Part shown: piece after piece, positions 4,748-64,000 of the stretch
Numbering within the stretch: the first letter of the stretch is position 1
Layout of the letters: the number at the start of each line of letters is the position of its first letter
Source of the DNA: Echinicola sp. 20G
GTDB taxonomy: Bacteria > Bacteroidota > Bacteroidia > Cytophagales > Cyclobacteriaceae
Direction of reading: 5' to 3'
Length of the DNA: 64,000 nt
Assembly: GCF_015533855.1 (NCBI RefSeq)
Contig: NZ_AP024154.1
Location: forward strand, 375,001 to 439,000
The notes under the pieces: model-generated
The model's input: only the letters and a program-made list of their open reading frames with translations
Told to the model about the DNA's origin: nothing
The model's database searches: none
Made by a program: the position numbers and the translations under genes

Positions 4748-5665
4748 TCATTGTTTTTTATAGTACTGGTATAAAATTGGTTTGATCCGGAAACGCTCTT
4801 CACTCAATGAAAAATAACTGTTTCCATTTTTGGCAAAACCAATCGCCTCCCCCTGAGGTTCTGGCACATAAGGCAATTGAACGGGGCTTCTTGATAGGGC
4901 TTCAGCTAGGCTCTCTCCTTCTTTTCTTTCCCAATGATAAATCACCCAATAATTCTTAATAATAATCTCTTTTCCATCTGGAGAAATATCTCCTCCAACA
5001 GACATGGTGATGGGCAATTTTTCTATTTTTTCAAGCTCCAGCTCTCCTTCATCCAATTGGTCTACAGGTGCCCGGTACAATACATTACTGGAGTCCCTCT
5101 TACTAACAATATAAACATCACCGTTCCATGGGTCTACCATCAGGGTTTCAGCGTCCTTAGCCCCATCAGGGTAATTTAGTTTGATCACCTCTGGCTCTAC
5201 CTCCACTTCTGATTCATCAGCATTCGGTTCCTCAAACCTTAATAGTCTGATGGAATGATATTGAGCTTCATTATCTCCTATTTCTCCGACATAGATATAA
5301 GACTTTCCTTCGCTTCCACCTGGCCCTACTGCGATATCCTCCCAATCCCTATTATGGGTATTTAACAACTTTATTTTACCAATAGAATTCCCCATTGAAT
5401 CAAGCTTATAGACAATAGGCTCTCCTCCGCTATCATTATGGGTATATAGCAAATTATTATACGTTCTAGAAGCAGCAATACCACTGGCTTCATTTAGAAG
5501 TTTTGCGTCAACTTGTCCTCTTTCCTTGCCGCTATAGTACAAGGAATCCTGAACTTGTGGATTAATTCTGACTTCATACTTGTTGTAGATTTTCTCTGAC
5601 AATAAATAGGGCATCAATGAGGCCAAAAAGGTCAGTTTCAGAATGATGTGGAAAATAAATTTCAT
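4748..5665 (-). CDS. Secreted propeller-like protein of unknown function
   Basis: 305 residues beginning with a hydrophobic signal or anchor segment (MKFIFHIILKLTFLASLMPYL). The rest has repeated beta-strand blocks (ASGIAASRTYNNLLYTHNDSGGEP, DWEDIAVGPG, YVGEIGDN, DGDVYIVSKRD-like) that resemble SMP-30/NHL or phytase-type beta-propellers. I do not recognise a named family. The protein is probably exported to the periplasm or envelope. It lies in the gap between the ctlX-like gene and clpC on the same strand, with about 75 bp to its downstream neighbour, so read-through is possible. Confidence 0.6.
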   Translation of the reverse strand: MKFIFHIILKLTFLASLMPYLLSEKIYNKYEVRINPQVQDSLYYSGKERGQVDAKLLNEASGIAASRTYNNLLYTHNDSGGEPIVYKLDSMGNSIGKIKLLNTHNRDWEDIAVGPGGSEGKSYIYVGEIGDNEAQYHSIRLLRFEEPNADESEVEVEPEVIKLNYPDGAKDAETLMVDPWNGDVYIVSKRDSSNVLYRAPVDQLDEGELELEKIEKLPITMSVGGDISPDGKEIIIKNYWVIYHWERKEGESLAEALSRSPVQLPYVPEPQGEAIGFAKNGNSYFSLSEERFRIKPILYQYYKKQ

Positions 5666-5731
5666 AAGCCAGCATTAGCAAAAGAAAGACCAATCAATAA
5701 CAGGAACTCGGGATTTAATGTTAAAAAAACC

Positions 5732-5764
5732 TAAAAAAAGTGGTCCGCCAAGGCGAACCACTTT
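5732..5764 (-). terminator. clpC terminator
   Basis: AAAGTGGTTCGCC/GGCGGACCACTTT arms (one mismatch) around a 2-base loop, followed on the minus strand by a T7 tract. Confidence 0.85.
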
Positions 5765-5786
5765 CGAATAAACCGTTTATTAAAAT

Positions 5787-8315
5787 CTAATCTGCTTTTT
5801 CTTTTTTCTGTACTGTAATCGTCAGCTCATCTCCTTTACCGGAGTAGTCTGCCTTGATCACATCCCCTTCGGACAACTCTCCACGAAGAATTTCCTCAGC
5901 AATAGCATCTTCCAAGTATTTCTGGATTGCCCTGTTTAGTGGTCTTGCACCATATTGCTGATCATATCCTTTGTCGGACAAGAAGTCCTTGGCTTTATCA
6001 GAAAGTTCAATTTTGTAACCCAAATCAGTAATTCTACTGAAGAGTTTTTCCAAACTGATATCGATGATTTTGTGAATATCCTTTTTATCCAAGGAATTAA
6101 AGACCACTACATCATCTAGCCTGTTCAAGAATTCTGGACTGAAGGCTTTTTTCAAAGCACTTTGGATGGTTGACTTCATCACTTCATCCATATTTTCTTC
6201 CTTAGCTTTAGAGGCAAACCCGATTCCTGAACCGAAATCTTTCAAATCCCTCACACCAATATTGGAAGTCATGATGATCACCGTATTTCTAAAGTCCACT
6301 CTTCTGCCCAAACCATCAGTAAGGATACCATCGTCCAATACTTGCAACAACAAGTTGAACACATCAGGGTGAGCCTTCTCTATTTCATCCAGTAAGACTA
6401 CTGAATATGGCTTTCTACGAACCTTTTCAGTCAATTGTCCACCTTCTTCATAGCCGACATAACCTGGAGGTGCTCCTACCAAACGGGATACGCTGAATTT
6501 CTCCATGTACTCAGACATGTCGATACGTACCAAAGAATCTTCCTTATCGAACAAGTAGGTAGCCAGCGTTTTTGCCAACTCTGTTTTACCTACTCCTGTT
6601 GGGCCAAGGAAAATAAATGATCCAATAGGCTTTTTAGGGTCTTTCAATCCTACTCTTGTACGCTGAATGGCTTTGGTCAACTTCTTGATTGCATCATCCT
6701 GACCGATTACCTTGCCCTGCAACTCCTTACCCATACTTAGAAGCTTGTTTCCTTCGTTTTGGGCAATTCGCTTGGCAGGAATGCCTGTCATCATCGCAAT
6801 AACCTCTGCAACGTTATCTTCCTCAACGGTGTATCTCTTGGTCTTACTTTCTTCCTCCCACTTGGCTTTTGCATTTTCCAATTGCTCCAGAAGCTTTTTC
6901 TCACGATCTCTCAACTGGGCGGCCTCTTCGTACTTCTGACTTTTGACTACCCTGTTTTTCTCAACCTTGATATTTTCTACCTCTTCTTCCAACTTCAGGA
7001 TTTCGTCTGGCACATGGATATTGTTAATGTGCACACGAGCACCCGCCTCATCCAAGATATCAATTGCCTTATCCGGCAAGAATCGATCTGAAATGTATCG
7101 GTCTGAAAGCTTCACACATGCATCTATGGCTTCAGGAGTATAGTTTACATTGTGGTGATCTTCGTATTTGTCCTTGATGTTGTTTAGGATCTGGATGGTT
7201 TCCTCTGGTGAAGTGGCATCTACCATCACCATCTGGAACCTTCTGGCCAAAGCACCATCTTTTTCAATATATTGTCTGTACTCATCCAAAGTAGTTGCAC
7301 CGATGCATTGGATTTCTCCACGGGCCAAAGCAGGCTTGAACATATTGGACGCATCCAACGAACCGCTTGCTCCACCTGCACCTACAATTGTGTGCAACTC
7401 ATCAATAAAGAGAATTACGTTTGGAGATTTTTCCAGCTCGTTCATCACTGCTTTCATTCTCTCCTCAAACTGACCTCTGTATTTGGTTCCAGCCACTAAA
7501 GAAGCAAGATCCAAGGTCACCACGCGCTTGTTAAAAAGAACTCTGGAAACTTTCTTCTGAACAATCCTCAAAGCCAAACCTTCCGCGATGGCTGTTTTAC
7601 CCACGCCAGGTTCACCGATAAGAATAGGGTTGTTTTTCTTTCTTCTGGAAAGAATTTGCGCAACTCGCTCAATTTCCTTTTCCCTACCAATAATCGGATC
7701 CAATTTATCATCTTCCGCCATTCGGGTAAGGTCCCTCCCAAAATTATCCAAAACAGGAGTTCTGGACTTTTCTGTTGAACCTTTGCCTCCTCCACTGGAA
7801 GAGCCACCGGACGAGCCGAAAAGTTTGCTGCTTTCCTCATCTGTATCATCTGCCTCAGCACCTGAGCGAGGGGTCTGATCAGTTTGGAACTCTAGCATTT
7901 CTTTAACGGTATCATAAGTGGTATCGAATTTATGCAGAATCTGGGTAGCGATGTTGTCTTCATCCCTAAGGATTGACAACAACAAATGTTCTGTTCCGAT
8001 AAGTTGGCTTTTAAATATTTTAGCTTCCAAGTAAGTAATCTTCAGTACTTTTTCAGATTGCCTTGTCAATGGAATATTGGCCAAGTTTTTAACATTATGG
8101 TTGGCCGTCCCTTTGACCGCGCGCTCCACAGAATTGCGAAGCTCATCCAAAGGCACTCCTAATTTCTTTAATATGGAAACAGCGACACCTTCCCCTTCAC
8201 GGATCATGCCCAGCAAGAGATGTTCGGTCCCAATGTAATCGTGTCCCAGACGCAAAGCTTCTTCACGACTTAGAGAGATCACCTCTTTCACTCTATTTGA
8301 AAATTTTGCTTCCAT
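5787..8315 (-). CDS. clpC: ClpC-type AAA+ unfoldase of the Clp protease
   Basis: 842 residues with the full ClpC layout: a double Clp-N domain (residues about 1-150, starting MEAKFSNRVKEVISLSREEAL), AAA1 with Walker A GEPGVGKTAIAEG and Walker B VILFIDELHT, a middle coiled-coil domain with UVR-like segment (YEEAAQLRDREKKLLEQLE), and AAA2 with GPTGVGKTELAK and VVLLDEIEKAH. ClpC unfolds substrates and feeds them to ClpP in the cytosol for protein quality control. A Ser/Gly-rich linker (SSGGSSSGGGKGS) follows the N-domain. It is transcribed alone and ends at a strong terminator. Confidence 0.96.
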   Translation of the reverse strand: MEAKFSNRVKEVISLSREEALRLGHDYIGTEHLLLGMIREGEGVAVSILKKLGVPLDELRNSVERAVKGTANHNVKNLANIPLTRQSEKVLKITYLEAKIFKSQLIGTEHLLLSILRDEDNIATQILHKFDTTYDTVKEMLEFQTDQTPRSGAEADDTDEESSKLFGSSGGSSSGGGKGSTEKSRTPVLDNFGRDLTRMAEDDKLDPIIGREKEIERVAQILSRRKKNNPILIGEPGVGKTAIAEGLALRIVQKKVSRVLFNKRVVTLDLASLVAGTKYRGQFEERMKAVMNELEKSPNVILFIDELHTIVGAGGASGSLDASNMFKPALARGEIQCIGATTLDEYRQYIEKDGALARRFQMVMVDATSPEETIQILNNIKDKYEDHHNVNYTPEAIDACVKLSDRYISDRFLPDKAIDILDEAGARVHINNIHVPDEILKLEEEVENIKVEKNRVVKSQKYEEAAQLRDREKKLLEQLENAKAKWEEESKTKRYTVEEDNVAEVIAMMTGIPAKRIAQNEGNKLLSMGKELQGKVIGQDDAIKKLTKAIQRTRVGLKDPKKPIGSFIFLGPTGVGKTELAKTLATYLFDKEDSLVRIDMSEYMEKFSVSRLVGAPPGYVGYEEGGQLTEKVRRKPYSVVLLDEIEKAHPDVFNLLLQVLDDGILTDGLGRRVDFRNTVIIMTSNIGVRDLKDFGSGIGFASKAKEENMDEVMKSTIQSALKKAFSPEFLNRLDDVVVFNSLDKKDIHKIIDISLEKLFSRITDLGYKIELSDKAKDFLSDKGYDQQYGARPLNRAIQKYLEDAIAEEILRGELSEGDVIKADYSGKGDELTITVQKKEKAD

Positions 8316-57767: not shown

Positions 57768-58001
57768 ATGGAAAAGGAAATAATTGGAAAATGGGTATTC
57801 AAGGATGGTAAGACGGTCGCTGATGCAAATTGCCATTTGATTGAATCAATGATTAAAAATGACTTAAAGGAATTTGAAAATAGTGAAGATGGATGGACAA
57901 GGCGTTATAAACACGCAAATGGCAGTATTTGGGAATTGACTTATCCTGAAAGTCATTTACATGGCGGTGGACCTCCTAAACTATCCAGAATAGAAAAATA
58001 A
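57768..58001 (+). CDS. Imm27-like immunity protein
   Basis: 77 residues. IGKWVFKDGKTVADANCHLIESMIKNDLKEFENSEDGWTRRYKHANGSIWELTYPESHLHGGGPPKLSRI fits the Imm27 family (the GGGPP ending is characteristic). Again no toxin is present. Two different orphan immunity genes side by side suggest an acquired immunity cluster. Confidence 0.7.
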   Translation: MEKEIIGKWVFKDGKTVADANCHLIESMIKNDLKEFENSEDGWTRRYKHANGSIWELTYPESHLHGGGPPKLSRIEK

Positions 58002-58018
58002 AAAAAACGTTGCACAAT

Positions 58019-58064
58019 GGCTAAAAAATCAAAGCTGCCCTGCGGGACAGCAGCACTTTTAGCC
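58019..58064. other. Structured palindrome after the immunity unit
   Basis: Outer arms GGCTAAAA/TTTTAGCC and inner arms GCTGCCC/GGGACAGC form a two-stage hairpin. It is not followed by a T tract, so a recombination or folding site is as likely as a terminator. Confidence 0.55.
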
Positions 58065-58213
58065 GAGCCGTTGTAGAAATTCCCCAGACTTAATAAAATC
58101 CTTTCAGAGTTTAATTAAAGAGAAATGAAAGCTAAAGGGGTATGAGAAATTATTATTACTCCATTTTTCAATGGAAAAGGCAGAAATATTTCTTAAAAGT
58201 CTAAATTTAACTC

Positions 58214-58669
58214 GTGAGAAAATTCTTAAAAGTAATTACAATATTGGGATATCTTTTATTCGGAGCATTTTGGTCTATGACACTTTATAATGCATTAACT
58301 ACAAACTCAATTTTTGAAATTTTCAAATTCGAATCTCTTAAAACGACAGAGGTGAAATATTTAGATGTTTCAAATTCTGATAAAATAATAGTAGATTATT
58401 CATATGAAATTGGTGGAAATGTTTATTCTAACCAAATAAAAGCCTCAAAGGAAGCTTTTGATAAAAAGGTAGGTATTAAAAACGAACTTCCAGTTAAAAT
58501 CAATAAAAGTTTTCCAAGTGTCAGTTACATAGTCAACTGGAAACTTAGTACCTATAATAATTTAACTTTATTCCTGTTTTCCATCTTTTTGGGAATGATA
58601 ATATTCTTTGATTTTGGGGTTGATAAGGATAAATGGATATCAAAGTATTCTAGTGCATTAAATAATTAA
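58214..58669 (+). CDS. Hypothetical two-pass membrane protein
   Basis: 151 residues from a GTG start. Membrane helices lie at both ends (FLKVITILGYLLFGAFWSM and NLTLFLFSIFLGMIIFFDFG), with a beta-rich extracytoplasmic middle (SDKIIVDYSYEIGGNVYSNQIKASKEAF), the general plan of DUF3592-type proteins. No clear family. There is no ATG in frame nearby, so the GTG is accepted. The gene is a typical small accessory gene of this variable region. Confidence 0.5.
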   Translation: MRKFLKVITILGYLLFGAFWSMTLYNALTTNSIFEIFKFESLKTTEVKYLDVSNSDKIIVDYSYEIGGNVYSNQIKASKEAFDKKVGIKNELPVKINKSFPSVSYIVNWKLSTYNNLTLFLFSIFLGMIIFFDFGVDKDKWISKYSSALNN

Positions 58670-58991
58670 TAAAACGAAAGAAAAAGCTGCTAATATTGCA
58701 TATAGCTTATGGAGGGTCATGACGAACATGAAGAGTGTCAGACTCCTTCAGAGTGAACGGCTACCAGCAAGGTTTTCGCACCGTAATCAGCTATGGTTTC
58801 GGTGGTCAGGAAATTACTCCAAAATGCCTAGCAATAACGAACACATTAATTATAATAATTTTGTGAGTAAACCGCCACAAGCCATAGCCAAACCGTTGGT
58901 GGCTAATTTGAAAAATGACCCTGAATTTTAAATACGTACAAGATTTAGCTATTTCTGAATCCTAGTTCATAAGCAAAGACTGAGACGGAAA
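58670..58991. other. Intergenic region with no supported gene
   Basis: About 320 bases. It includes a partial inverted similarity (GCTATGGTTTCGGTGGT versus GCCATAGCCAAACCGTTGG) and a short basic open frame that looks non-coding. Probably the remnant of a cassette boundary. Confidence 0.4.
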
Positions 58992-60022
58992 ATGATAAAA
59001 AATAGAAAAGCCAAATGGATCGTAAGACTTTTATTACTCATTGGTACAGTAATATCCATGTTTTTTGTGCCATGGATTTTGGTAAAGGCCTGGATTTTAC
59101 CCTTACCTGATACTGTCCAAGAACAAGTGGATGAAGCAATTGGATATGGTTTTGACGGCATGATTGTTTATGTGGACCAAGCAGGAAAACCACCAAGACA
59201 TTATAAGGGTGGTTGGAAAGATAGAGAAAATAAAATTCCAGCCGACCCAAAATCATTTTTCAAAATTGCCAGTATTAGCAAGCTATATACCGCTGTAGCA
59301 GCCACTAAAATGGTCAAAGAAAAGCGTTTGTCTTTTGATAAAACACTCGCCGATTATCTTCCAGAACTTGTAGGTAGGATTGAAAATGTTGAAAAAATCA
59401 CCTTGAGGATGATGATTCAACACCGTTCTGTTATTCCAAATTTCACAGATAATCCAGCTTATTGGGAGAACGAACAAGAAAATGGCAATAATGCTTTGGA
59501 TTTTGCTCTTGACCTACCAGCCAGTTTTAAACCTAATGAAGGATATGAATATTCAAACACGAATTATTTATTGCTTCGTAGGATTATGGATAATGTTTTA
59601 GGGTATAGCCACAATCAGTATATCAAAGAGAAAATATTGATTCCCCTAAAGCTGAATAATACCTTTTTTTCGATTACCGAAGTCGATTTAGATAGTGTTA
59701 TGAGTGGATATTATGTGGGTTATGAGGAAGATTTTAAAGCCCGTGAATATGGAATGTTGGCTACAGCAGAAGATGTGGGCATATTCTTACGGGCCTTAAA
59801 CGATGGTTCGGTATTTGACGAGGGAGAAGAGTTAATCTATCCTTATGAATATAATCATGGGGGGGGTTGGTTATTGGTTATCAAAGCCTTGCAGAATACC
59901 ACAAGGACATTGATGCCGTGGTAGTTCAATTTATCAACACTACGGATTTTGAAGGTTATGAATGGAACTTATCTGAAATCACAATAAACCGAATTGTAAA
60001 AATAATTAGAAAGAAAAACTAG
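58992..60022 (+). pseudogene. Serine hydrolase (beta-lactamase fold), frameshifted at G8
   Basis: A class C beta-lactamase/DD-peptidase-like protein: N-terminal membrane anchor, FKIASISKLYTAVAATKM (SxxK), EYSNTNYLLLRRIM (YxN). The frame that starts at 58992 ends at 59924, but after the run of eight G (59869-59876 region) the protein-like sequence continues in another frame, GYQSLAEYHKDIDAVVVQFINTT, to a TAG at 60020-60022. Six G would restore one frame giving YNHGGLVIGYQS, and the HGG is the third active-site element. So the present form loses it. The run could be a phase-variable switch, a mutation or a sequencing error. Confidence 0.8.
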
Positions 60023-60146
60023 CCACAATGGCTTCCATCAAGAACCAAAAGTTCCGATAAGCCCTTTATTTTTTCTTTTTGGCTTCTCTTTGGTTTTGTA
60101 CCCAATTGTACACTTAGCCTTGTGATAATCACTTTTTAAAATTTAC

Positions 60147-60493
60147 TCTCCTGTAAGCCGATTTTCACTTCCTGTTACCTTTATCGAGCTTCCTGTATAC
60201 TTGTCTATCCTTCCTGTACGACTATTAAGGCTTCCTGTAAGCGCATTCCCCCTTCCTGTACCCCATAAGAGGCTTCCTGTAGTAAATATTGCCCTTCCTG
60301 TCGAACAGGAAGACATGAAAGCTACAGGAAGGGTGTACCAGCCTACAGGAGGCCAACTTTATATACAGGAAGGCTAATTAGTCCTACAGGGCGTCAACTT
60401 TACCTACAGGAGGCCAACTTGGGGTACAGGAAGGGTCTAAGGGGTACAGGACGGTACTTTGGCCTACAGGACACTGACTTTGCTTACAGGACG
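60147..60493. repeat. Convergent array of 18 short TCCTGT units around a central palindrome
   Basis: Left half: a degenerate unit at 60147, then CTTCCTGT at 60168, 60189, 60210, 60231, 60252, 60273 and 60294, at exactly 21-bp steps. Right half: ACAGGAAG or close variants (ACAGGnnn) at 60305, 60324, 60345, 60365, 60386, 60406, 60426, 60446, 60466 and 60486, at 19-21 bp steps. The centre is CTTCCTGT-CGA-ACAGGAAG. The spacers (about 12-13 bp) all differ. No open frame fits. It is not a CRISPR because the repeat is only 8 bp and the two halves are inverted. Confidence 0.85.
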
Positions 60494-60654
60494 GAATAAA
60501 ATTTTACGATTTAACAGATTACATACATAAATAACCAATAAACGGCTTACCCGAAATAATCGGGAAAGGCTGCCCAACTATGTTTTAACCGCAATCTTGA
60601 TAGTCTTAAGAAAATAGTTTATTTTTTGCCTAGATTGCATTTAAAACACTTTAC

Positions 60655-61080
60655 GTTATGCGGCATGCTAAGACAAACACAATAAAATGAAGTACTATCA
60701 ATTATTTATAGACACTGACAATAATGCTGAAACTTATAATCGTGTGACAGATATATTAGGACTTCAGCCGACAAAAAGTGAAAAGAACAAGACTTCGGAA
60801 GACAGATATAGTACTTGGATGTATATAGTCACAGAAACTGAAACAGACCCTTACTTTGATTTTATCAATAATTTCCTTGACATTTTAGAACCGAAATTTG
60901 CTAACCTTGAAAAACTAGGTGTGACAAGAGATAAAATTCTGTTTTGGAAGCTCTATGAATATGACCAACAATGTGGAATGGAATTTCATCCTCAAGAAAT
61001 GGTAAGACTTGGACAAAGTGGAATTCACCTGAATATTGACTGTTGGACAAACAATACGGAAGAAAGCACGACCGCATAAC
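60655..61080. repeat. Cassette-like unit bounded by GTTATGCGG/CCGCATAAC
   Basis: A perfect 9-bp inverted repeat (60655-60663 and 61072-61080) encloses only the DUF4279-like gene, and its right arm contains the stop codon. A hairpin GTCAG-GCGGG-CTGAC follows. Confidence 0.55.
60687..61079 (+). CDS. DUF4279-like protein
   Basis: 130 residues. KYYQLFIDTDNNAETYNRVTDILGLQPTKSEKN at the start and GQSGIHLNIDCWTNN at the end resemble DUF4279, a family common in accessory and immunity-type regions. Function unknown. It is the only gene of its 9-bp inverted-repeat unit, and its TAA is formed by the right arm. Confidence 0.6.
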   Translation: MKYYQLFIDTDNNAETYNRVTDILGLQPTKSEKNKTSEDRYSTWMYIVTETETDPYFDFINNFLDILEPKFANLEKLGVTRDKILFWKLYEYDQQCGMEFHPQEMVRLGQSGIHLNIDCWTNNTEESTTA

Positions 61081-61189
61081 ACGGGTTTTGCGTCAGGCGG
61101 GCTGACGTGCAAGCTTGGAGATTTGTGTTGCTAATGAAATTTAGTAATAAATTGAAACTTTGTTCTCCGAAACCATTAGTAGTAATTCA

Positions 61190-62047
61190 ATGTTAAAGAC
61201 AATCAAACATATAATAATTTGTCTACTGACATTTTGGACGATAGACATTTTTGCGAGTCCACAAATGCCAGACTATGTGATTTACAATAAGGATACAATA
61301 GCCACTTACAACCTGATTCTTGAACAATATTTGCAACGACAAGACTCGACAGAAACAAAACAACTTTTTGAACTCATATTTCGAGAAGGAGCATTTTTTA
61401 ATTGTTGGCGGGGTTATCAGGCTATTTATCAGATAAAGAATGACAGTTTATATTTGATTGACATAGTTAATTGTGGAGAACTAAAAAGTGGTAGAATAAA
61501 CAAAAGCCAATCCGTTGAAAAAATGAAATCCATTTTCGGTAAAAAGTTGAAAAATGGAAAACTTTTTATTGACTGGTTTGAAGGCTACTTAAATTTCCCC
61601 TTAAACAATGAAGTCATAAGATGGGACGGAGTTTTCTACACAATATTTGAAAGAGAAAAAGTTTTAACTATTGCAAATGGACTTATTGAAAGAGAAGAAG
61701 ATTTTAACAATTATATCGATGACCCGAAAAGAATCGACAGGCGTGATAAGAGTAAAATATCCGACCTCCTATTCAAGAAACTGAAAAAGGCGAAATGGAA
61801 AAACCCCGATGAATTTGACTGTTCTGAAACATATTTTGTAACAATTAATGAAAATGGAGTTATTTCAAAGGTCAGAATGGCTCTATCTGACCAACAGGTT
61901 GATGAATATTACGAACCAAACGAATTCAACTTTTGCATTGACAAAATGATGACAGCTTTAAAAGATTTGAAATTCGACATTATCAAGGATAAGGGAAAAC
62001 CCATATCCGAAGATATTTATATTGAAATTTATGATTATCCGCAATGA
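61190..62047 (+). pseudogene. Secreted hypothetical protein, 3' end displaced by IS insertion
   Basis: From the ATG at 61190 the product begins with a signal peptide (HIIICLLTFWTIDIFA) and has a TonB-C-like end (YFVTINENGVISKVRMALS...CIDKMMTALKDLKFDIIKDKGKPISED). The reading frame runs into the IS after IYIEI and ends with a few foreign residues. The lost end (FVEDNGKIENWTN, stop at 63113-63115) is found in frame on the far side of the IS after the second copy of ATTGAAATTT. Removing IS plus one repeat restores a 293-residue protein. It is still nearly complete, so it might keep some function. Confidence 0.7.
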
Positions 62048-63064
62048 TGCCAGTAAGGATAAATAGCAGCAATGATGAGCCTGTCAAATAGTTTTTGACC
62101 GAAATATCTTCTGTTGAGCTTATAGCAGAACTCGTCAAGATAGTTTTGCATCATTCTTTCACTTATCATATGGTATGTCTGCAGGTGTTTCTTTAAGTTG
62201 CTGATAGCAATGTGTACCCATTTGAGGTTGAAGTGCCCCTTTTCGGTTCCCGAGATCTCCTTGACATGCACATCTATACAATCACCCAGGTCTGAGAAGG
62301 TGGTGCTCATATCTGTTTGAAGCACTGAGTTTGGATCAATAAATTCCTTGATCAAATTCTGGGCTGTTTTCGCCTCCAGGTTCTTTATCTTCTTCATCTT
62401 AAAATACCTACAGCTTTTGTCGGATTTGCCCGTTTCAAGGTCTTCCAAAACCGTTGATTCGGCCATTACGGCCACTATTGACCGTTTTTGGCTGCCCCTG
62501 CCTCTTTTGAGTTTGTGTGGTTTTTTCGTTGCTTTGCCCACGAAGGCCTCGTCATACTCCACCATGTCCTCAAGACTGTAAAGATCATCGCGTTTCCCCA
62601 TTACTTTACGGAGTTTATGGTACATCCTGAAGACAGGTTCGTAACGCTTCATGCCCAGCTGTCTTTGGAGTTCCAAAGCACTGAAGCCCTTCTTGGTGGC
62701 TGTGATGAAGGTCATGGCCAACAACCAGGTCCGGATCGGAAGATTACTGTTTTCCATTACCGTTCCACTTCTGATACTTGTCCTGAAGCTACAGGAAGAG
62801 CATTGAAAGGCCTTTTTGTTTGCCAACCAATAATGTCTGATACCTTTGCATCTTTTGCAGATGATACCTGCTTGGCTCCTTTTGTGCCTGATAAACTCGA
62901 TACAGGAAGATTCGTCAGGAAACCGATTGATGAAGTTGATAATGTTCATGGTCAAAACCGTTTGTCTTGACCCAATTTATTGAGAGTAATAACTCAACTG
63001 AAGCAATTGACACCAACTGTCAATGTTAATTTATTTGGCTACTGGTGCTATTGCGGATATACAC
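62031..63064 (-). mobile_element. IS1595-family (ISXO2-like) insertion sequence
   Basis: About 1034 bp. Near-terminal inverted repeats share TATCCGCAAT and CCAGTA (62036-62045 and, inverted, 63050-63059). The 10-bp direct repeat ATTGAAATTT flanks the element (62021-62030 and 63065-63074) as a target duplication; the family norm is 8 bp. Confidence 0.75.
62035..62949 (-). CDS. IS1595-family transposase
   Basis: About 304 residues. Two CxxC pairs form an N-terminal zinc ribbon (ICKRCKGIRHYWLANKKAFQCSSCSFR); the DDE-type core has VEYDEAFVGK and LQTDMSTTF with the two Asp and HIAISNLKKHLQTYHMISERMMQNYLDEFCYKLNRR with the Asn/Glu position and the family's C-terminal YLDEF..NRR. The ATG at 62949 is preferred over an in-frame TTG. 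The stop codon lies in the left inverted repeat. The gene looks intact, so the element may still move. Confidence 0.9.
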   Translation of the reverse strand: MNIINFINRFPDESSCIEFIRHKRSQAGIICKRCKGIRHYWLANKKAFQCSSCSFRTSIRSGTVMENSNLPIRTWLLAMTFITATKKGFSALELQRQLGMKRYEPVFRMYHKLRKVMGKRDDLYSLEDMVEYDEAFVGKATKKPHKLKRGRGSQKRSIVAVMAESTVLEDLETGKSDKSCRYFKMKKIKNLEAKTAQNLIKEFIDPNSVLQTDMSTTFSDLGDCIDVHVKEISGTEKGHFNLKWVHIAISNLKKHLQTYHMISERMMQNYLDEFCYKLNRRYFGQKLFDRLIIAAIYPYWHHCG

Positions 63065-63210
63065 ATTGAAATTTTTGTTGAAGACAACGGTAAAATTGAG
63101 AATTGGACAAATTGAAAAAGCACATACCACCATCAAAAGTTCCCATAAAAACTACTCGCCAAATTACTCAAACCTGGTTTACAGCTGCTAGCATGACCGT
63201 CGTTTTCCTC

Positions 63211-64000
63211 CTAAGCCCTTTTCCTTATCAATTCCCTTTCCTTCCATTCTGTTGGGGACATGCCTTCAAACTGTTTGAAAACCCTGGAAAAATAATTGAC
63301 ACTGCTAAAGCCACTTTCAAAGCAAGCTTCGGTGATATTGCTGCCTTTCCAGAGGATTTGCTTCTTGGCCAATTCCAACCTCTCCCTGTTGACAAACCTT
63401 ACGGGCGTTTCTCCCAGCTCCCTTTGGAAAGCCCTGAAAAATTGGGCGCGTGAAAGGCAGGCCTGACTGGCCAAACCATCCACATCCAAGTTTTGATGTA
63501 GGTTTTGCCGGATAAAACGGACCACATGCGCCAACCTATTTCTGGTGCTGAGTTTATCCACATTTTGTAGTAGGTAATGTCTGGCCTGGGTCTGCATCAA
63601 GCTGGCAATCAGTTCCCGGGTGGTATTGGAGGCCTTCATCTGCTTTCCAAAGCCATTGTCCACCATTACCCGGATCAGGCTATTGAGATTTTCCTGAACC
63701 AATTGGTTGTTCATCAGTAAAAAATTATCCTTGCTCCACGTCCATTTTTCCTCATCTATTTTGGGGAAGTGTTCATTGAGCCAAGCCATGGTTTCCTGTA
63801 CAAATCCCTCACTGATTTCCAATGCCAAACACTGGGTGGGGTCATCAAAAGTAGCTTCCGGAAAGTCGATGTACATCAATTCGGATGCCGGCATCACAAT
63901 GGATTGCCCGGGTAAAAACTCAAATGCATCCTGTGACCTAAGGTGCATGATTTTCTTGCCCTGAATCATGCTTACAATTACTGGATTGTCAAACTGCAGG
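63211..64000 (-). CDS. AraC-family transcriptional regulator, 5' end outside window
   Basis: The reading frame is open to the window edge. The N-terminal cupin-like part of the AraC_N type is seen (NPVIVSMIQGKKIMHL, FEFLPGQSIVMPASE) and the C-terminal double HTH is clear: LDVDGLASQACLSRAQFFRAFQRELGETPVRFVNRERLELAKKQILWKGSNITEACFESGFSSVNYFSRVFKQFEGMSPTEWKE. It would activate a nearby gene in response to a small molecule. An in-frame ATG at 63969 exists but upstream similarity shows the true start is beyond 64000. Confidence 0.88.
   Translation of the reverse strand, partial: LQFDNPVIVSMIQGKKIMHLRSQDAFEFLPGQSIVMPASELMYIDFPEATFDDPTQCLALEISEGFVQETMAWLNEHFPKIDEEKWTWSKDNFLLMNNQLVQENLNSLIRVMVDNGFGKQMKASNTTRELIASLMQTQARHYLLQNVDKLSTRNRLAHVVRFIRQNLHQNLDVDGLASQACLSRAQFFRAFQRELGETPVRFVNRERLELAKKQILWKGSNITEACFESGFSSVNYFSRVFKQFEGMSPTEWKERELIRKRA

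Follow-up and report, generated by a model that had tools for sequence, protein, structure and literature searches.

A phased ACAGGA array in Echinicola sp. 20G, a candidate orphan of a gene-array pairing in Bacteroidota

Introduction

In plasmid Rep-iteron systems, sites repeated in tandem every two helical turns or so adjoin the gene of a small cognate protein. The ParR-parC and TubR-tubC centromeres combine a small DNA-binding protein with its own phased site array and with pair-specific recognition. The REP/RAYT elements are palindromic repeats between genes, linked to a gene of the chromosome and with orphan copies, and CRISPR loci consist of long repeats (over 20 bp) together with cas genes. 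Two repeat families are described from Bacteroidota. The BrickBuilt minisatellite-MITE of Porphyromonas gingivalis has 23-nt tandem repeats which are intergenic and multi-copy (PMC4596501). TAACTGA repeats are direct heptamers, lying mostly close before start codons in their main species and found also in some Bacteroidota (PMC4679880).

The array studied here lies in a window of 64,000 nucleotides from Echinicola sp. 20G, and it shares some traits with each of these systems except CRISPR. Rep-iteron systems resemble it in having direct repeats 20–22 bp apart beside a gene (here in 35 of 45 3′ flanks), but the 28 family members scanned gave no replication initiator domain match, the own gene and arrays lie in a single 5.79-Mb contig, and a plasmid search with one query protein was empty. 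Here, moreover, a core of 5–6 bp alone is kept, the arms are convergent, and the cores differ between close paralogues. With ParR-parC and TubR-tubC the likeness is a small protein with its own phased array and, as predicted here, pair-specific reading; in contrast, no motor gene (ParM, TubZ, ParA) was present among the few neighbours scanned against Pfam, the protein is all-helical without a family match, and in this branch it is the 3′ side of the gene that carries the array. REP/RAYT shares intergenic palindromic repeats, linkage to a chromosomal gene and orphans, whereas our proteins gave no match to the Y1 (HUH) transposase and the arrays are long and phased rather than single palindromes. 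CRISPR differs in its repeats, the core here being 5–7 bp, and no cas family was detected among ten proteins scanned. BrickBuilt elements are likewise intergenic, multi-copy repeats of Bacteroidota, but their repeats have no spacers, they carry IS5-like terminal repeats, and the accessible part of their description mentions no cognate protein (PMC4596501). The TAACTGA repeats are also short and intergenic, with some in Bacteroidota, while phased spacers and a cognate gene are not mentioned in the accessible part of that paper (PMC4679880).

We give about two chances in three to the reading that a dedicated small all-helical protein uses the array as a DNA platform with many helically phased sites, and that the window copy is an orphan served in trans. 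The pairing of gene and array appears to be previously undescribed: among titles and openings of abstracts, with subscription journals and preprints outside the scope, no description of such a system was found. Searches of the same scope for "PQLLE", and for "21-bp repeats" with Bacteroidetes, found nothing.

Results

Layout of the window array

Two arms of short units converge on a palindrome (Table 1). The sequence-only reading had claimed eight rightward units at exact 21-bp steps, and all their starts were found again: 60149, 60170, 60191, 60212, 60233, 60254, 60275 and 60296. The leftward units start at 60305, 60324, 60345, 60365, 60386, 60406, 60426, 60446, 60466 and 60486, with successive steps of 19, 21, 20, 21, 20, 20, 20, 20 and 20 bp. 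For these, the claim of ten TCCTGT units at 19–21 bp holds in spacing and count but not in every letter, as nine are ACAGGA and the one at 60386 is ACAGGG, with one mismatch. The centre, CTTCCTGT-CGA-ACAGGAAG, is palindromic without mismatch as claimed, its 8-bp halves being 3 bp apart, and no two spacers of the array are alike, again in agreement with the earlier description.

Table 1. Parts of the array and their positions in the window
Feature	Position	Strand	Description
Left arm	60149..60301	+	Eight TCCTGT units, 21-bp steps exact
Centre CTTCCTGT-CGA-ACAGGAAG	60294..60312	no strand	Convergent cores, 3-bp gap
Right arm	60305..60491	-	Ten leftward units, 19–21 bp; distal half at 20 bp
Whole array with AT-rich distal end (cggaataaaattttacg)	60149..60508	no strand	One of four ACAGGA arrays in the genome

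A detector blind to the motif, which takes the longest chain of any one 5-mer at 19–22 or 39–43 bp, was applied to 127 overlapping 1-kb tiles of the window. Chains of 2–3 were obtained except in four tiles: two with chain 5 on a low-complexity TATTT tract, and two with chain 10 on the array. The word TTCCTGT occurs 24 times in the window, against a mean of 11.1 and a maximum of 19 in 100 shuffles. A coding repeat (21 bp being seven codons) was rejected for these arrays because of the 20-bp steps in the right arms and in many others.

On one side the array is flanked by a gene of the serine hydrolase family, and on the other by a gene whose match to DUF4279 is borderline (24.8 bits against a cut-off of 25). 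The gene-free stretch of 664 bp described earlier stands if the upstream gene ends at 60022; with the ORF as listed (58992–59924) the gap is 762 bp, the next ORF being at 60687. The serine hydrolase gene (58992–60022; beta-lactamase family, PF00144) has a reading frame apparently broken near its 3′ end. An IS1595-type transposase (ISXO2-like) is located at 62035–62955, about 1.5 kb off the array, with no obvious link to it.

Arrays in the genome and its relatives

The own genome (G000) has four ACAGGA arrays: the window array and those at 3.127 Mb (L148), 3.526 Mb (L149) and 4.386 Mb (L150), of which L149 is reduced to 4 + 1 exact units. A three-unit pattern matched 6 of 59 genomes, the matches in G016 and G044 being other repeats, and its reversed form, used as control, matched none of the 59. 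Congeners G001, G007 and G008 have further arrays, and G002 has one with a CCCTGT core which the strict pattern overlooked. In the family-level set a looser pattern matched 29 of 295 genomes (reversed, 6 of 295), many of these being simple repeats or lone chance matches; arrays of like kind are present in other genera (L184, L185, L187–L189). The sequence-only reading had proposed a search for phased TCCTGT units in the own and related genomes and had counted absence from relatives, together with spacers explicable as diverged copies of one sequence, as a sign of neutral decay. Further arrays were found in both, and relatives do carry them.

Plain TCCTGT at 21 bp was detected in 117 stretches from many phyla. 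An AT-rich block such as GAATATTATTTGG often closes arrays (by eye in L202, L209, L228, L238, L239 and L241) and is perhaps an end unit. In L187 (G246, with a gene fragment only) a second array begins at 7041 (5-mer AGGAA, chain 13), about 1.3 kb from the CAGGA array. Short palindromes (gcaacgcgggttgc) recur in L150 at 5180–7590, in the stretch that separates the gene from its cis array; at 7035–7586 there is a gene which resembles, by eye, a REP-associated transposase.

The linked gene and its protein family

L150, L154, L194, L184 and L191 have homologous genes, each with the array on its 3′ side; the protein they encode is about 245 aa long, and is shortened in L184. The family protein is all-helical, 230–250 aa long, uncharacterised and without a Pfam family; a Pfam scan of 28 members gave nothing better than E 0.013 and no Rep family. 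A single family gene was found in the own genome (G000:C1:4387324-4388067), with the tail YYRK and an ACAGGA array 3′ of it. The whole-genome search matched 4.387 Mb alone, with no family gene near the window array, which is therefore an orphan. The distance between the two is 3.95 Mb along the contig, or 1.83 Mb the opposite way if the contig is circular.

The gene is present in 3 of 11 genomes of the genus and in 28 of 295 at the family level, often in several copies with broken ones among them, and its dN/dS among three species is 0.10–0.13. A protein search yielded 244 homologues. The organisms among the best 120 included Echinicola, Marivirga, Aquimarina, Fulvivirga and Reichenbachiella, and the names given in these 120 were "hypothetical" or "uncharacterized", apart from one UniRef entry called DUF3102 domain-containing. 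The A2 search of a class-level sample matched 1 of 395 genomes, the own one, and in the family of G423 none of 294 genomes matched, in a sample without a known positive. Plasmids and phages gave no match to one query protein, and on viral contigs 108 stretches fitted the peptide pattern, with none confirmed. Genus-level searches brought no new genomes on which the tail code could be tried independently.

NCBIfam NF052641, "PQLLE family protein", is a remote homologue: 25 of 28 proteins match it at E 0.1 or better, and profile–profile comparison gives E 2.5e-7, but the own protein scores 36.9 bits, under the curated cut-off of 80. Among remote homologues in Bacteroidota, 12 of 19 loci (examined from 26 matches outside the own genome) have 21-bp phased arrays exceeding their own shuffles; these lie 5′ of the PQLLE genes, in contrast to the 3′ position here. 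At about 360–730 of L251, in gene orientation, a PQLLE-like gene is preceded by repeats of 42 bp starting GTCATTCAGAGCGAAGCGAAGAATCC, double the usual unit. Another such gene has an upstream 21-bp array (L247:684–950) that is by eye open as 7-codon repeats in one frame, while in L260 the corresponding frame of the upstream array has stops, also by eye. The proteins of L248, L252, L253, L258, L260 and L261 have extra C-terminal parts that look fibronectin type III-like by eye.

Linkage of gene and array, and array geometry

We analyzed 47 loci from 48 distinct gene copies. L220 (G022), which is remote and has no phased repeat, was excluded, and L196, L211 and L212 were swapped for fuller stretches of the same loci. 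A chain of at least 5 was detected in 35 of the 45 3′ flanks that reach 300 bp (L205 and L222 are shorter), against none of 47 5′ flanks. In 40 shuffles for each of 44 3′ flanks (L197, which holds N, L205 and L222 left out) the chain was never above 4. The ten 3′ flanks of 45 without such a chain count against the multi-site array proposed here.

How regular are these arrays? With periods from 10 to 42 scanned (each ±1), chains of at least 5 were obtained at 20–22 and 40–42 only. In the 35 gene-linked arrays the chained steps were 21 bp (157), 20 bp (57) and 22 bp (5), plus 27 doubles of 39–43 bp, and the first chained site follows the matched gene end at a median of 50 bp (range 6 to 644). 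When 40 gene-linked arrays were tested for two exact cores converging at a distance of 12 bp or less, 20 had such a pair, and in 14 of the 20 the cores are exactly 3 bp apart. Over 252 units, positions 12–17, about 11 bp from the core centre, are AT-rich, and the spacers retain a weak common consensus. Upstream of genes the own core occurs in 9 of 40 regions and other cores in 92 of 600; with the core hardly enriched there, promoter autoregulation by it has no clear support and was rejected.

Core words and the C-terminal tail

The core word varies from copy to copy (ACAGGA, ACAGGG, GCAGGA, TCAGGA, CCGGGA, CCATGG, CCCAGA, CCGGAA, TGGAAG, GTTGTG and others) and is unlike even between close relatives. 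Two paralogues in a single genome also differ, L199 having GCAGGA and L224 CCGGGA. Judging from the sequences compared, the protein tail tends to change in step with it. Thus, Y-L-[ND] goes with TCAGGA (6 genes), Y-H with CCGGGA (5), Y-F-[RK]-[NM] with GCAGGA (4), H-W with CATG (3), Y-Y-R-K with ACAGG in the genus (3) and Y-R-S-R with GTTGTG (2). When all 252 columns of the alignment A2 were scanned (20 proteins; 8 same-core distant and 180 different-core pairs), the residue after a conserved GYxSxY, column 234, was the best separator of same-core from different-core pairs, with agreement of 0.75 in same-core distant pairs and 0.12 in different-core pairs, a difference of 0.63 against 0.39 for the next column. 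The tail pattern was first noticed on A2, and core classes were set afterwards from automated consensus and inspection.

For a stricter test L203 and L217, with cores read by eye, were removed, and proteins were clustered at 70% identity. Between clusters (below 70% identity) the tail residue was common to 23 of 40 same-core pairs, against a mean of 5.1 and a maximum of 18 in 20,000 permutations over 35 genes, which ignore the tree and leave the cluster split as the sole guard against kinship. Within clusters, the tail residue differs in 22 of 24 different-core pairs and is identical in 7 of 8 same-core pairs. This residue is the fourth most variable of 232 columns among the best 120 of 244 homologues; around it, G, Y, S and Y are conserved in 112, 110, 115 and 105 of the 120 listed.

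Among the L224–L243 copies with a core class known from A2, the expected tail was present in 8 of 12 (L224, L225, L227, L229, L230, L233, L237 and L241); this test is not fully independent, since some of these copies are close relatives of A2 members. The tail was unexpected in the other four: L232 (resembling NCGGGA and classed as CCGGGA), L234, L238, where the gene is broken, and L240, the last compared with L214, all being like cores with unlike tails. Nor is the code one to one. Y-F is found also with ACAGGA (L184, L191), CCCCGG, CCCAGA and TTAGGA; Y-R, Y-W and Y-K tails each go with several cores, and F, W, R, K and Y after the tyrosine recur with other cores.

Conservation, loss and decay

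Selection on motif and phase, as the sequence-only reading had suggested, is supported by comparison of the orthologous cis arrays of G000 and G008: in an alignment partly anchored on motifs, 92 of 96 motif bases (96%) are kept against 185 of 266 spacer bases (70%). The chained steps of the gene-linked arrays, at 20–22 bp and their doubles, support it as well.

Arrays do not strictly need the gene. G001 (L151, 18 units), G259 (L189, about 20) and G086 (L188, 8) have good ones although no gene was detected in them, and these count against the preferred reading. So do the reduced arrays of genomes that have the gene: L149 in G000, and in G008 L153, which copies the L151 array but has a single unit in its right arm. 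In G007, where no gene was found, one array is down to two units and another is cut short. The third array of G007, short on the right, weakens the suggestion that gene loss leads to array decay, since it matches the equally short L149 of the gene-bearing G000. At the L149 locus nine other congeners have one flank in common, with no array in the adjacent 600 bp.

Discussion

Alternative explanations

It is possible, although on balance unlikely, that gene and array form a selfish pair, in which the protein spreads, expands or maintains the arrays, like a minisatellite with its helper gene, and the orphans are useless by-products. The multi-copy, patchy genes with broken copies would suit this, as would orphan arrays sharing the core of the resident gene, close relatives with different cores, and the units duplicated, by eye, within the arrays L168 and L176. 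But the proteins scanned include no nuclease, recombinase or transposase family, and viral, plasmid and phage collections held no confirmed copies at the sensitivity used. Mobile insertion with a clean empty site was also considered and rejected, as in the lone candidate, G007 at the L148 locus, a deletion seems to have removed all but two distal units. Since motif and phase are kept while spacers diverge, selection on binding would be needed even for a selfish pair. Purely neutral minisatellite decay, with the units as diverged functionless copies of one repeat, is already strongly disfavoured and seems to us highly improbable. The weak spacer consensus, the duplicated units and the arrays that outlast the gene in some genomes agree with it; the excess of motif over spacer conservation in orthologues, the spacing fixed at 20–22 bp despite differing spacers, the position 3′ of one gene family and the core-tail covariation all speak against it.

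The transcribed arms might instead fold as a long imperfect hairpin, or give repeated sites for an RNA-binding protein. Indeed, the window array folds at -144.4 kcal/mol against -102.8 in 100 shuffles (z -7.5, none as low), and in L204, L206 and L208 the first hairpin looks, by eye, like the gene's own terminator, with the convergent pair at its tip. Yet several arrays are nearly one-armed (L148 with 3 and 14 units, L189 with 1 and 19, and by eye L208 and L198), and because such arrays are common the two-arm hairpin is not the conserved feature. An RNA element also leaves the 20–21-bp spacing without a reason, and an Rfam scan of window 58000–64000 gave nothing up to E 1; we regard it as improbable. 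Slightly less credible still is an iteron-like replication or copy-control system, or a ParR-type centromere left by a once mobile replicon. Such systems do have repeats at two helical turns that adjoin a small-protein gene, and paralogues with different words in the same genome are what avoidance of cross-talk requires, but Rep, ParA/ParM and relaxase families are absent from the proteins scanned and the one query protein found no plasmid match.

Proposed mechanism and significance

According to the phased-platform reading, the basic C-terminal tail would read the core in the major groove and a protein dimer would occupy the central palindrome. Cores 20–21 bp apart, which is two helical turns, would face the same side, and further copies may line the arms along this one DNA face to give an ordered nucleoprotein complex, the AT-rich patch about one turn from each core probably aiding arm assembly. 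The product of the single gene of the own genome would act on all four ACAGGA arrays, that of the window included. The sequence-only reading, which had guessed at a protein filament or large complex, is partly supported as a whole: a dedicated protein is now indicated by the linkage of gene and array and by the core-tail covariation. The complex may serve local chromosome structure or tethering, act in a partition-like way, or maintain the pair selfishly; of these we favour structure or tethering, at odds well below even.

We consider it slightly better than an even bet that these loci represent a class of gene-array pairs, so far undescribed and spread through the whole phylum Bacteroidota, in which a helical protein builds a complex on its own 21-bp array and specificity is switched largely by one hypervariable residue in GYxSxY-X. 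This would amount to a natural tail-to-word code with many orthogonal pairs, sometimes several per genome. If this is right, a new DNA-array system extends across a phylum, with an evolving protein–DNA code readable from sequence, and a genome whose paralogous pairs differ in their words would offer orthogonal modules for docking on DNA, ready for use. Then we can also ask: What use do bacteria make of long, exactly phased arrays outside plasmids and centromeres?
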